Shown: piece after piece, positions 11,255-39,243 of the stretch
Numbering within the stretch: position 1 is the first letter of the stretch
Layout of the letters: every line of letters begins with the position of its first letter
Assembly: GCA_030156825.1 (NCBI GenBank)
Contig: JASGLU010000010.1
Coordinates: forward strand, 1 to 39,243
Direction of reading: 5' to 3'
Source of the DNA: Candidatus Atribacteria bacterium
GTDB lineage: Bacteria; Atribacterota; Atribacteria; Atribacterales; JASGLU01
Length of the DNA stretch: 39,243 nucleotides
Translations under genes and position numbers: made by a program
The notes under the pieces: model-generated
Seen by the model: only the letters and a program-made list of their open reading frames with translations
What the model was told of the DNA's origin: nothing
Databases searched by the model: none

Positions 11255-11632
11255 CAATAAGGGGGAAAAGAACTCCCCCTTATCAACCCCCTGAAAGACA
11301 AAACATGAAAAGATAAATACTAACCGAGGAAGAAAACGTCCCTCGGTATAAGGGGGAAAAGAACTCCCCCTTATCAACCCCCTGAAAAACAAAGACAAAA
11401 GAAAAAAACAAATACAACCGAGGAAGAAAACGTCCCTCGGTATAAGGGGGAAAAGAACTCCCCCTTATCAACCCACCCGGGAAAAACTAAAAAGACATAA
11501 AAGAAAAAGATAAAATCAAAATAAATACAAAGACAGAAACTACTGAGAGAGAAAAAACGTCTCTCTCAGTGGGGCAAGCCTCCTAATAACCCCCGAAAAG
11601 TAGACTTACTGAGGATAAAATAAATCCTCAGT
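11255..11632. repeat. Tandem array of composite hairpin repeat (modules B and A), units of about 91-94 bp
   Basis: B hairpin ATAAGGGGG-n9-CCCCCTTAT at 11257-11283, 11348-11374, 11442-11468. A hairpin ACCGAGG-n11-CCTCGGT at 11323-11347, 11417-11441. Variant A hairpins ACTGAGAGAG...CTCTCTCAGT at 11542-11570 and ACTGAGGAT...ATCCTCAGT at 11608-11632. Confidence 0.93.
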
Positions 11633-18703: not shown

Positions 18704-19711
18704 ATGAAAGAGAACACTCCCCTCCTTCAAGTTCAAGATTTAAAAGTATATTTTTACACTGAAGAAAAGGAAGAGCTGAGAGCAGTAGATGGAGTGAGTT
18801 TTTATCTTAAAGAAGGGGAAACTATAGCTTTAGTCGGGGAGTCAGGATGTGGTAAAAGTGTTACTTCTTTGGCTATTCTGCGTTTGATTGATTCTGATGG
18901 AAAAATCCAGGGAGGGAAGATAATTTTAAGGGGTAGAGATTTGCTTTCTCTTTCGGAAAAAGAGATGCGAGAAATTAGAGGAAGAGACATTTCTATGATT
19001 TTTCAAGAGCCGTCTTCTGCTTTGAATCCAGTTTATACCGTAGGAGACCAAATAATGGAAGCGATAATTTTGCATCAGAAACTTCCTCGTCCCCAAGCTC
19101 GAAAAGCGGCAGAAGAAGCGCTCAGGTTGGTGGGTATTCCTGAAGCCCGGAAAAGATTAGATGAATACCCACATGAGCTCTCGGGAGGAATGAAGCAGAG
19201 AGCAATGATTGCTATGGCTTTATCCTGTCATCCTAAAGTTTTAATTGCGGATGAACCCACCACTTCTTTGGATGTTACTATTCAGGCTCAGATTTTGGAG
19301 TTAATTGCCGAGTTACAGCACCGGCTTAATATGGGAGTGATTCTGATTACCCATGATTTAGGAGTGGTGGCTGGCATGGCAGAGAGAGTGGTGATCATGT
19401 ATGCGGGCAAAGTGGTAGAAGAGGGAAGTCGCTGGGATATATTCCACCATTCTTTTCATCCTTACACCTGGGGGCTTCTACACTCTATCCCTCGTTTAGA
19501 CATCAAACAGGAAAAGTTAGCTATCATTCCTGGAGCGGTCCCTGACCCGCTTAACTTTCCTTCCGGCTGCAGATTTCGCAACAGGTGTCCTTTAGCAGAT
19601 GAGCTGTGCCTTACTGAGCCTCAATGGCGTGAAATAGAAAGCCAACATTATGTATACTGTCATCATTACTCGCAAGTTGAGGTGTTAAAAACCCGGGGTT
19701 TTGAGCGATGA
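18704..19711 (+). CDS. dppD: Peptide ABC transporter ATPase, DppD type
   Basis: LVGESGCGKSVTSLAILRL, ELSGGMKQRAMIAMAL, C-terminal GCRFRNRCPLADELC. Confidence 0.94.
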   Translation: MKENTPLLQVQDLKVYFYTEEKEELRAVDGVSFYLKEGETIALVGESGCGKSVTSLAILRLIDSDGKIQGGKIILRGRDLLSLSEKEMREIRGRDISMIFQEPSSALNPVYTVGDQIMEAIILHQKLPRPQARKAAEEALRLVGIPEARKRLDEYPHELSGGMKQRAMIAMALSCHPKVLIADEPTTSLDVTIQAQILELIAELQHRLNMGVILITHDLGVVAGMAERVVIMYAGKVVEEGSRWDIFHHSFHPYTWGLLHSIPRLDIKQEKLAIIPGAVPDPLNFPSGCRFRNRCPLADELCLTEPQWREIESQHYVYCHHYSQVEVLKTRGFER

Positions 19712-20700
19712 ATGATACTCCTTTGTTACAGGTGCAGAATTTAAAACAATATTTTCCCATTAGAGCCGGGGTTCTCCGAAAAATTGTAGATTGGGTGAAA
19801 GCGGTGGATGGAGTAAGCTTTGAAGTTTCACCCGGAGAAACCTTGGGAGTGGTGGGAGAGTCAGGTTGTGGGAAAAGCACTTTGGGCATGAGTATTATGC
19901 GGCTTTATGAGCCAACCGAGGGAAAAGTATTTTTTCAAGGACAAGAAATTTCTTCTTTGCAGTCCTCCCAGCTAAAAAATATTCGGCGCGATATTCAGAT
20001 GATTTTTCAAGATCCTTTTACCTCCTTAGACCCTCGCATGCATGTAGGACCTATAATTGAAGAAGGGATGAAAGTACATCATTTGGCTTCCCTTCCTGAA
20101 ATTCGGCGTAGGGCGCTGGATTTGTTAGAAAAAGTGGGTTTGGGAGCGGAATATTTTTCTCGTTATCCGCATGAGTTTTCCGGAGGTCAAAGGCAAAGAA
20201 TTGGGATTGCCAGAGCCCTGGCTCTTAGCCCTCGTTTGATAGTTGCGGATGAGCCGGTTTCCTCGCTGGACGTTTCGGTTCGTTCTCAAATTTTGAATTT
20301 ATTGAAAGATTTAAAAAAAGAATATCAACTAACCTATATTTTCATTTCTCACGATTTGGCGGTAGTGAGACAGGTTTGTAATCGGGTTATGGTCATGTAT
20401 TTGGGGAAAGTGGTAGAAATAGCAGAAGGAGAAGTTTTCTTTTCCACCCCCTATCATCCTTATAGTGTAGCTTTGATTTCGGCGGTGCCGGTTCCGGACC
20501 CCGATTATGAAGTCAAGCGAATCATTTTAAGCGGAGATGTTCCCAGCCCTATTAATCCGCCGGAGGGCTGTCGATTTCATACCAGGTGTCCAGTTGCTCA
20601 GGAAATATGTCAGCAGGTAGAACCGGTTTTGGAGCAGAAAGAAAAAAACCATTGGGTAGCCTGTCATTTTCCAGGAAGCCTTTCCTATAAAGGACAATAG
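19708..20700 (+). CDS. dppF: Peptide ABC transporter ATPase, DppF type
   Basis: VVGESGCGKSTLG, EFSGGQRQRIGIARAL, GCRFHTRCPVAQEIC; ATGA overlap with dppD. Confidence 0.94.
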   Translation: MNDTPLLQVQNLKQYFPIRAGVLRKIVDWVKAVDGVSFEVSPGETLGVVGESGCGKSTLGMSIMRLYEPTEGKVFFQGQEISSLQSSQLKNIRRDIQMIFQDPFTSLDPRMHVGPIIEEGMKVHHLASLPEIRRRALDLLEKVGLGAEYFSRYPHEFSGGQRQRIGIARALALSPRLIVADEPVSSLDVSVRSQILNLLKDLKKEYQLTYIFISHDLAVVRQVCNRVMVMYLGKVVEIAEGEVFFSTPYHPYSVALISAVPVPDPDYEVKRIILSGDVPSPINPPEGCRFHTRCPVAQEICQQVEPVLEQKEKNHWVACHFPGSLSYKGQ

Positions 20701-20843
20701 GGGGTAAACCCCCTATAACCCCCGAAAGGCAAAAAACTTAAAAACTGAAAAATACAAAATACTAACTGAGGAAGAAAGACATTCCTCAGTGGGGTAAACC
20801 CCCTATAACCCCCGAAAGGCAAAAAACTTAAAATAAAAGGCAA
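20695..20843. repeat. Composite hairpin repeat array between dppF and infC
   Basis: 43-nt exact direct repeat (ggggtaaaccccctataacccccgaaaggcaaaaaacttaaaa) at 20701-20743 and 20791-20833, 90 bp apart, separated by A hairpin ACTGAGGAA-n8-TTCCTCAGT 20765-20790. Confidence 0.93.
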
Positions 20844-20852
20844 AGACTAAAG

Positions 20853-20960
20853 AAACGAAAAGCTGAAAGGATAGACCATTATTGTTTTTCTAAGATTATA
20901 TTGAATTCCGTTTTCATTGTTATCTGGTGCTGCGAGCAGCATGGGGGTCTATCCTTTCAG
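20853..20960. repeat. Inverted-terminus element R2 (copy 1) upstream of infC
   Basis: CTGAAAGGATAGACC (20863-20877) and its perfect reverse complement GGTCTATCCTTTCAG (20946-20960); internal GCTGC-GA-GCAGC palindrome; partial copies at 32281-32337 and 240-268. Confidence 0.85.
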
Positions 20961-20983
20961 TTAGATAACAAGAAGGGTTAATA

Positions 20984-37114: not shown

Positions 37115-38094
37115 GAAACATTTGGGATACAGTTATTAGTAACCGGGTATTGTTTTTGTCTTTACTTTTTGTCATTCTTTTTGTTTTTTTCTCTTTTACT
37201 ATCCCCGGCTTTTTTAATCTTTACAACCTTAGCAATATGACTCAATATGGGGTGGAGTTAGGGCTTTTGGCTCTGGCAGAGGCTCTGGTTATTTTATCCG
37301 GTGGAGGAGGAATTGACCTTTCAGTAGGTTCGATGATGAGTTTGGTATCTATTTTGATGGGGGTGCTTATCGGAAGAGCAGGTTGGTCGCCAGTTTTTGC
37401 TGTCCCGTTAGGTATTTTAGCAGGAATGGGTATGGGCTTGTTTAACGGCATTTTGGTAAGCCTGGGACGGATTCTGCCACTAATTGTAACTTTGGCTGGG
37501 CTTTATATGTATCGATCGTTGGCCCTGATAATTGCGGTTGACCCGCAATTTGGCCCCAACCCCATGCCGGTTTCTACCTTTCCCGAGTCTTTTTACTTTG
37601 TTGGTCAATATCGAGTAGGAGGCATTCCCTTTCAAGTTTTGTTCATATTCCTGCCGGTTCTGTTAATTTTTCATTTCCTTTTATCTCGAACCACCTGGGG
37701 AAGACAGCTGTATGGGGTGGGCAGCAATGAAACGGCAGCTGTTTTTTCCGGAATTAATTTGAAAAAAGTCAGATTAACCGTCTACACTCTCTCGGGAATT
37801 TTGAGCGCTCTGGCTGCCTGGGTTATCACCTCTCGTATTGCCAGTGCTCGCCCGGACGTGGGGACTGGCTATGAACTTCAGGCAATTACCATTGCCGTTC
37901 TGGGGGGGATAAGTATCCAAGGGGGAGAGGGGACAGTAGGCGGAGTTCTGCTGGCGGTGGCTATTATTACGATGATTAATAATGGTTTGCAATTAGCCGG
38001 CATCCACCAAATCTGGCAATTGGGCGCTTTAGGAGCAGTCTTGGTCGGCAGTGTTCTTCTCAACCAGTTTCTTATTCAGAGAAGAAAAATTTAA
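37111..38094 (+). CDS. Sugar ABC transporter permease (RbsC/LsrD-like)
   Basis: ILSGGGGIDLSVGSMMSLVSI; GVGSNETAAVFSGINLKKVRLTVYTLSGILSALA. Confidence 0.92.
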   Translation: MRNIWDTVISNRVLFLSLLFVILFVFFSFTIPGFFNLYNLSNMTQYGVELGLLALAEALVILSGGGGIDLSVGSMMSLVSILMGVLIGRAGWSPVFAVPLGILAGMGMGLFNGILVSLGRILPLIVTLAGLYMYRSLALIIAVDPQFGPNPMPVSTFPESFYFVGQYRVGGIPFQVLFIFLPVLLIFHFLLSRTTWGRQLYGVGSNETAAVFSGINLKKVRLTVYTLSGILSALAAWVITSRIASARPDVGTGYELQAITIAVLGGISIQGGEGTVGGVLLAVAIITMINNGLQLAGIHQIWQLGALGAVLVGSVLLNQFLIQRRKI

Positions 38095-38101
38095 AAGTAC
38101 G

Positions 38102-39040
38102 GTGCTTAAAATCGCTCTTGGGATAATAATTTTTCTTCTGGCCTTTCAGCCGGTTGGGGCCTGGGCAGGAGATTTTCACATATTCCTTGTTTCACTCTTT
38201 CCCGAGAGCTACTTTTCCTCTTTTTTCCAACTTCATTTTGAAAGATTACTCGGCGAAAAAACTGTCCGATTTTTTGAGTTCTCCGCTTTTTGCTCAGCCC
38301 TTTCCGATGGAAATGTGCCCTGGGAAGCCAACTCTCGGCCGATAGTAGTTTTTAGCGAATTGAGTTTGGAACACGGGAAAAAGGTGGAAAAACTGATAGC
38401 AGAGAAAGGTGAGAGTCTGCGCCCGTTAATTTTGGGAGTAAACTGTCAGGGGAATTTTGGGAATAATGATTTTCTATCCCTTCTGGTTGACTACCATCGG
38501 GGAGGTAGGGAGATAGGAAAAACAATAAAGGGAAGAGGGGGAAAGGTGCTCTTAGCCCATTGGGGAGAATTTTTTGTTGATCAGTTTCAGTCCGGTTTAA
38601 GGGAAGAAATAGGGGACTTTAAAGTCGTTTTCTGGCAAAATGAAGCTTTGAGCTCGGATTTTTTAGAAGATTTTGAGTATTTGATTATAACCTCCGATTT
38701 TTTAACTCAAGAGATAATTAAAATTTTGAGAGATACATCTCTTTCTGAGAAAAATTTAATAGTGCTTGAAGCCTCAACCAGGATGTTAGCTTACTTGCAA
38801 GAGGGAAAGATAAACTTTCTTCTTGATACCAAACCCTCGCGCCTGGCAGGCAAGCTGGTAAACTGGATTGAAAAACTGGAAAAGGGAGAAGAGATTTTAG
38901 AAAGAGAGATTTTTATCCCCCCTTTAATTATTACTCCTTCTAATCTGGAAGAAGCAGATAGCTATGAAGTCCTTGTCCGCTGCTTTCTGTGTGGTAGGGG
39001 GACGAGGTTATCCGGGGCCAGACCTTTCAATAGACAATAG
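38102..39040 (+). CDS. Divergent periplasmic-binding-protein-like exported protein
   Basis: GTG start 38102 gives signal peptide VLKIALGIIIFLLAFQPVGAWA; PBP1-like architecture (PLILGVNCQG..., KINFLLDTKPSRLAGKLVNWIEKLEKGEEILEREIFIPPLIITPSNLEEA). Confidence 0.6.
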   Translation: MLKIALGIIIFLLAFQPVGAWAGDFHIFLVSLFPESYFSSFFQLHFERLLGEKTVRFFEFSAFCSALSDGNVPWEANSRPIVVFSELSLEHGKKVEKLIAEKGESLRPLILGVNCQGNFGNNDFLSLLVDYHRGGREIGKTIKGRGGKVLLAHWGEFFVDQFQSGLREEIGDFKVVFWQNEALSSDFLEDFEYLIITSDFLTQEIIKILRDTSLSEKNLIVLEASTRMLAYLQEGKINFLLDTKPSRLAGKLVNWIEKLEKGEEILEREIFIPPLIITPSNLEEADSYEVLVRCFLCGRGTRLSGARPFNRQ

Positions 39041-39243
39041 AGGGCAAGCCCCCTTATCAATCCCCTGAAAAGCAAAACAAACTAAAAAGACAAATACAAC
39101 TGAGGAAGGCAAAAAAGACCTCCGTGTCTGTCATTCCTGAATGTTCTATCCTGAAAACGGCAATAATGGGGGCTTCGCCCCCCTTAAACCCCCCTAAAAG
39201 ATAAAACAAATACAAAAAAGCTTAAAAAGATAAATACTTACTG
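39035..39243. repeat. Composite hairpin repeat array, continues past window end
   Basis: CAATAGAGGGCAAGCCCCCTTATCAATCCCCTGAAAA (39035 on), decayed A module near 39098-39126, CAATAATGGGGGCTTCGCCCCCCTTAAACCCCCC (39161 on), and linker 'gataaatacttactg' at the edge that matches the start of another A module. Confidence 0.85.

Follow-up and report, generated by a model that had tools for sequence, protein, structure and literature searches.

Hairpin cassettes in Atribacterota genomes form intergenic arrays that behave like REP/BIME palindromes

Introduction

The window analysed here, a stretch of 39,243 nt, is contig 15 of an Atribacterota MAG of 1.98 Mb in 98 contigs (hereafter the window genome), from an uncultured, deep-branching bacterium. 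Four of its intergenic loci carry the same two-hairpin unit, with stems that differ from copy to copy but keep their pairing. The question is whether this pairing marks a selected hairpin, as the initial annotation had proposed, or whether a process acting on DNA suffices to produce it.

Organization of the arrays in the window

Direct reading of the sequence confirms that both hairpin modules are present at all four loci, and every stem variant that the initial annotation had listed as keeping its pairing is found. The first module (H1) is a G-run/C-run hairpin, ATAAGGGGG-loop-CCCCCTTAT, usually followed by AACCCCC; its base is ATAA/TTAT, ATA/TAT, ATTA/TAAT or ACAA/TTGT, and a related genus (g10, from a different family of the order) adds ATGA/TCAT. 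Next comes a linker, one strand of which is rich in A and poor in T, and then the second module (H2), ACYGAGG(N)...CCTCRGT. Arrays read H1, AACCCCC, linker, H2 and next H1, with a basic cassette (H1-AACCCCC-A-rich linker-H2) of ~75–130 bp. The two hairpins differ from each other and keep a constant order and orientation, and different H1 classes stand behind one H2 type in these mosaic arrays. Some stretches take a shorter form, for example H1-AACCGAAC-H1, and there is a terminal type of H1 (ACAAGGGGG...CCCCCTTGT) with AAACCCCTTTCTTTTTT after it.

The first locus, on the plus strand like all units described below, begins with an H2 (ACCGAGGAAG...CTTCCTCGGT, 17–45). An H1 of stem class ATTA/TAAT and its AACCCCC follow at 46–77 (ATTAGGGGG-AAAATA-CCCCCCTAAT, 46–70), and a perfect palindrome read directly on the plus strand (GGAAAGTGAGGAAGG-TTTT-CCTTCCTCACTTTCC, 96–129) closes the array. 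The second locus contains four units: (i) 11257–11347, with H1 at 11257–11283, AACCCCC, an A-rich, T-poor linker and H2 at 11323–11347; (ii) 11348–11441, with H1 at 11348–11374, a linker and H2 at 11417–11441; (iii) 11442–11570, with H1 at 11442–11468, a long linker and H2 (ACTGAGAGAG/CTCTCTCAGT) at 11542–11570; and (iv) 11571–11632, read directly as a degenerate H1 (GGGGCAAGCCTCC), AACCCCC, a short linker and H2 (ACTGAGGAT/ATCCTCAGT) at 11608–11632. The units starting at 11257, 11348 and 11442 are 80–98% alike over 46 nt, which is plain tandem duplication. Thus, of the earlier view that these are selected hairpins and not simple duplicates, the kept pairing stands, but duplication is present in the window.

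At the third locus, a unit at 20697–20790 (H1 ATAGGGGG-TAAA-CCCCCTAT at 20697–20716, AACCCCC, linker, H2 at 20765–20790) is followed at 20791–20833 by a second H1 with a partial stem, AACCCCC and linker, identical to 20701–20743. Next to it lies a ~100-bp repeat of undefined strand (20863–20961) with inverted ends CTGAAAGGATAGACC / GGTCTATCCTTTCAG and a small inner hairpin; this repeat is MITE-like and recurs beside many other arrays.

The fourth locus had been placed at 39035; its true start is 39014, where a 19-nt sequence that recurs genome-wide (GGGGCCAGACCTTTCAATA, 39014–39032, plus strand) copies the left end of a RAYT-type insertion sequence with three mismatches. Both modules are there, but a complete H2 is not: an imperfect H1, AATCCCC and a linker (39036–39108) lead into an H2 whose left arm (39099–39108) has no right arm, and a further H1 (AATAATGGGGG-CTTCG-CCCCCCTTA, 39164–39186), AACCCCCC and linker (39164–39243) lead into an H2 start cut by the contig end. 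Two window ORFs, 19708–20700 (330 aa) and 38051–39040 (329 aa), have their TAG stop in or directly before H1 (CAATAG), and the arrays appear to provide their stop codon.

Copy number and distribution

A strict pattern search of the window genome gives 231 H1 matches, some of them overlapping, and 80 H2 matches, against none of either with reversed patterns. The repeat family recognized in the window is real, and its sequence is undescribed as far as our searches reached: an Rfam search returned no family above the gathering threshold. Copies occur genome-wide and in the four genomes of g10, with 22–50 H1 and 1–13 H2 matches each. In the remaining 20 genomes of the order, H1-like matches number seven or fewer and are unrelated in make-up, and H2 is matched no more than once. 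Plasmids and phages were searched for H1/H2 without a find, and the matches on viral contigs are unrelated hairpins sharing only core letters. The genome-wide comparisons below were made on stretches fetched around repeat copies (loci named L...).

Genomic placement and orthologous sites

The fetched stretches contain 98 intergenic repeat blocks, and each set shows a single ORF overlap. Where both neighbouring genes are known, 15 gaps are convergent and three divergent; in tandem settings, array and genes share a strand in 20 cases and are opposed in 16. With ORFs called by length alone, these placement counts are approximate. Arrays are therefore intergenic and prefer the 3' sides of genes, in both orientations relative to them: checking placement against genes, as the initial annotation had suggested, revealed a side preference but no strand preference.

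Sites that correspond between genomes are occupied differently. Loci L105 and L192 are orthologous, with flanks of about 90% identity, and have different stems and unrelated loops; L089 and L094 have an array site in common, but not its hairpins. One site, with flanks that match between genomes G019 and G015, spans 1.1 kb and includes an array in G019 but measures 55 bp in G015; no base-exact empty site was found in this comparison. A 111-bp H1-linker-H2 cassette is 93% identical between G019 and contig 53 of the window genome, which belong to different families; the match runs from the H1 base to H2, and the flanks are unrelated on both sides. Array flanks are poorly syntenic within the related genus. 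Many contigs end inside arrays, and arrays, by marking contig ends, help to explain the fragmented genomes of this clade. Separately, three locus pairs of G015 and G019 (L103/L085, L189/L186 and L231/L130) are 97–99% identical, compared with about 80–92% in other matching regions, which may reflect recent transfer or a binning mix-up.

Stem pairing and the case for RNA

Covariation was assessed by direct column tests on anchored stems against a null of shuffled partners. The window genome provided 40 distinct anchored copies of H2. Position 3 pairs as T-A in 24 of these and as C-G in 15, and is unpaired in one (39 of 40 paired; shuffle mean 20.6), and position 8 is A-T or G-C in 34 (shuffle mean 22.9), counts that treat related copies as independent, the independent changes being fewer. 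Positions 3 and 8 of H2 covary in g10 too, and sliding the partner by one base lowers the share of paired cells from 0.91 to about 0.3. The covariation in the stems is real.

The inference from covariation to selection, by contrast, is weakened by several observations: (i) G.T and A.C mismatches are about equally common (18 and 14), with no strand-skewed wobble, so neither strand behaves like a folding RNA; (ii) the loop is inverted within an intact stem in three clear copies among the loci fetched from the window genome, and in five copies from g10; (iii) the wholly swapped hairpins at orthologous sites do not fit stepwise compensatory evolution; and (iv) strand-neutral placement, together with the lack of wobble skew, argues against a stranded RNA. 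Paired stem changes also show few intermediates. With the inverted loops, these match the products expected from DNA-polymerase template switching between inverted-repeat arms, which homogenizes the arms and inverts spacers (PMC8604942). The stem matching can thus be explained by DNA copying or repair, with template switching plausibly maintaining the pairing, and we infer that template switching rather than selection accounts for the stems.

RNA hairpins serving as 3'-end stabilizers, terminators or small RNAs, with pairing conserved by selection on the RNA, would accord with the strong stem conservation and with the preference for gene 3' sides. Furthermore, H2 on the minus strand is followed by a T-rich tract and looks terminator-like, at seven sites in a 1-kb region including flanks compared with 1.5 after shuffling; gene orientation, however, does not match, and we rejected the terminator reading. 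The 20 to 16 split of strands in tandem settings, the mismatch balance, loops that vary freely and invert, the wholesale swapping of hairpins and the lack of an Rfam match all speak against RNA. An RNA role of the arrays has no specific support, and we regard it as unlikely. A DNA-level process is favoured because of the mismatch balance, loop inversion, unit swapping, the cassette shared between families and the site with an array in one genome and a short gap in the other, and because array strand shows no bias relative to genes.

Neighbouring repeats and the case for non-B DNA

Further structured repeats of known kinds accompany the arrays. CGTC-tagged REPs (CGTCATTCC...) adjoin them in the window genome (16 near, 0 far), a repeat bounded by GGATAGACC/GGTCTATCC is found near arrays 16 times and far from them once, and BoxC-like triplex motifs are near arrays in three cases and far in none in the window genome (11 and one in g10), although this near/far comparison is confounded by that of intergenic with coding sequence.

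The last of these bears on another alternative, namely that the arrays are non-B DNA elements (intrastrand triplex or cruciform) with a function like that of BoxC/TM, kept for their effect on DNA. In its triplex version, the G-run and C-run of the hairpin and a third C-run would form a class III triplex (class I on the other strand) that stalls replication and promotes rearrangement. A precedent is known: BoxC/TM elements, like the arrays, have three purine/pyrimidine tracts in one strand and lie between genes in unstable neighbourhoods (PMC4666352). A third C-run is generally present and varies in length with the hairpin C-run (rho 0.55 in the window genome; 0.24, not significant, in the related genus), a correlation inflated by shared ancestry. 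Co-occurring BoxC-like motifs, contig ends inside arrays and poorly syntenic flanks point the same way, but contig ends are an assembly effect and not biology. Moreover, the published intrastrand triplex motif comprises three homopurine/homopyrimidine tracts of ≥6 nt with loops of 1–6 nt (PMC4666352), whereas H1 tracts are shorter (mostly 5–6 nt, at or below that minimum), pure G/C and ordered R-Y-Y, with an A/T stem extension; ATAA/TTAT pairs separate the tracts, and some H1 copies (AACCGAAC) lack the third run. We consider such a DNA function improbable, on a par with the RNA role.

Association with insertion-sequence ends

The 19-mer GGGGTCAGGTCTTTCAATA, the left end of an insertion sequence, has 17 matches at ≤3 mismatches (control 0), and H1 follows within a few bases in 15 of them. 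One such copy of left end, H1 and linker leads into a frameshifted RAYT with inverted end GAAAGGCCTGATCCC, a remnant that has H1 on one side. At L056 (contig 19, 3161–4060), inverted ends enclose a frameshifted, N-terminally truncated RAYT, a Y1 transposase with a C-terminal HTH-like part; the left end contains a copy of H1. No intact RAYT was found in any repeat-bearing genome: only degraded ones occur, in the window genome and G021, and none was found in G015, G019 and G024. Elsewhere in the order, other families do have intact RAYTs; these end in plain terminal inverted repeats (e.g. GGGGTCAGGTCTTGA...TCAAGACCTGACCCC) without H1 and were rejected as present-day drivers on that ground. Among the loci fetched from the related genus, none has the left end GGGGTCAGGTCTTTCAATA. 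The arrays thus often sit at a RAYT-type insertion-sequence end, a sequence association that makes this element a candidate mover at most.

It is very improbable that an unassembled multi-copy RAYT/IS200-type element transposes actively today with the arrays as its end repeats. In favour, H1 lies directly against the left end at 15 sites, RAYT sequence still adjoins one copy and multi-copy insertion sequences are often absent from MAGs. Against it, the RAYT is degraded or missing in the genomes above, the intact RAYTs of the order lack H1 and the left end is missing from the related-genus loci.

In 41 of the 44 parsed cases, the base before an array-first H1 is C, mostly as part of RRC, which may be a candidate 5' tag. 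These H1 copies have RRC as their 5' flank and AACC as their 3' flank; for H2 the flanks are AAATACTAAC / ATAAG. Neither a GTAG tag (or close variant) beside the H1/H2 palindromes nor a CGTC tag at H1 or H2 ends was found. Overall, the arrays behave like REP/BIME palindromes, while the tag test of both known superfamilies failed.

A non-autonomous palindrome family

We consider it fairly probable that the arrays represent a non-autonomous, DNA-level family of intergenic palindromes that is REP/BIME-like but untagged. Like REP/BIME, they are short palindromes in hundreds of copies, intergenic, at gene 3' sides and in mosaic tandem arrays, with stem variants that keep pairing and a RAYT remnant nearby. 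Unlike REP/BIME, they have no GTAG tag and no intact RAYT; they combine two different hairpins in a set order, whereas a BIME repeats one REP that alternates in orientation. Pneumococcal BOX elements are likewise composite cassettes of hairpin modules, unrelated in sequence. REPINs are also composite hairpin cassettes, but inverted doublets of one REP and again unrelated in sequence (PMC3116915). CGTC-tagged REPs (dRS3, RPE-type) are similarly palindromes without a dedicated transposase; H1 and H2, however, lack the CGTC tag and have other stems and tails (PMC3733652). The GGGGTCAGGTCTTTCAATA end belongs to the type of inverted end that the order's intact RAYTs carry, as in TIR-associated tyrosine transposases (TIRYT; PMC3733652), but those intact elements have neither H1 nor H2. 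A MITE would be bounded by terminal inverted repeats and a target-site duplication; this cassette ends in two different hairpins, and the comparisons gave no base-exact empty site. An integron attC-like reading was rejected on inspection, with no cassettes or ORFs between hairpins.

In a REP/BIME-like family of this kind, cassettes would have spread to new intergenic sites, as suggested by dispersed copies, by array presence and absence at an orthologous gap and by the cassette common to two families in unrelated flanks. They would multiply locally by tandem duplication, as seen in the window, and the hairpins swapped at orthologous sites suggest exchange by recombination or conversion. In single-stranded hairpins at replication forks, one arm may template the other, which would be the main process keeping stems self-complementary and would also invert loops. 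We speculate that the original dispersal was probably by a HUH/Y1 (IS200/IS605-RAYT-like) transposase acting in trans, now decayed or absent from the assembly. Judging from placement, purifying selection may act only in excluding arrays from genes and promoter regions. It is conceivable, though doubtful, that the H1-linker-H2 cassette represents a separate class of single-strand mobile palindromes, with its own 5' tag (RRC) and third C-tract, moved between genera as a ~110-bp unit by a further enzyme and accreting on the ends of other repeats into mosaic arrays.

Our literature search found no paper describing these repeats, nor any on REP/BIME-like repeats in Atribacterota. The arrays extend such repeats to this phylum with a new sequence and organization. 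They also show that repeat copies can display strong apparent covariation in their stems without this implying a functional RNA: inverted loops and swapped units provide an explanation at the DNA level, one that covariation screens should check for.

Look-alike hairpins and a small linker module

A nearly identical hairpin, GGATAAGGGGGACTTTCCGGTCCCCCTTATAACCCCC, recurs in MAGs of Aminicenantes, Acidobacteriota, Deltaproteobacteria and Bacteroidales (L138, L139, L153, L169, L175, L187, L173 and L204, among others); in L139 and L175 it is accompanied by a reading frame for an IS200-type TnpA. A 20-base core, ATAAGGGGG...CCCCCTTATCAACCCC, is present in or next to archaeal tRNA genes (L134 and L191 from archaeal MAGs; also L157, L162 and L207), apparently as part of an intron-like insert. 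The H1-like hairpins in archaeal tRNA genes, and those at IS200-type TnpA ends in Aminicenantes and further phyla, share the 20-base core but have neither linker nor H2, and we therefore attribute them to coincidence or convergence. Within the arrays themselves, a small module, GACAGYCTACGRCGTAARCAAAA, is inserted in the linkers of both lineages (L077, L081, L083, L089 and L102, among others, in g10; L054, L060, L065 and L071 in the window genome).
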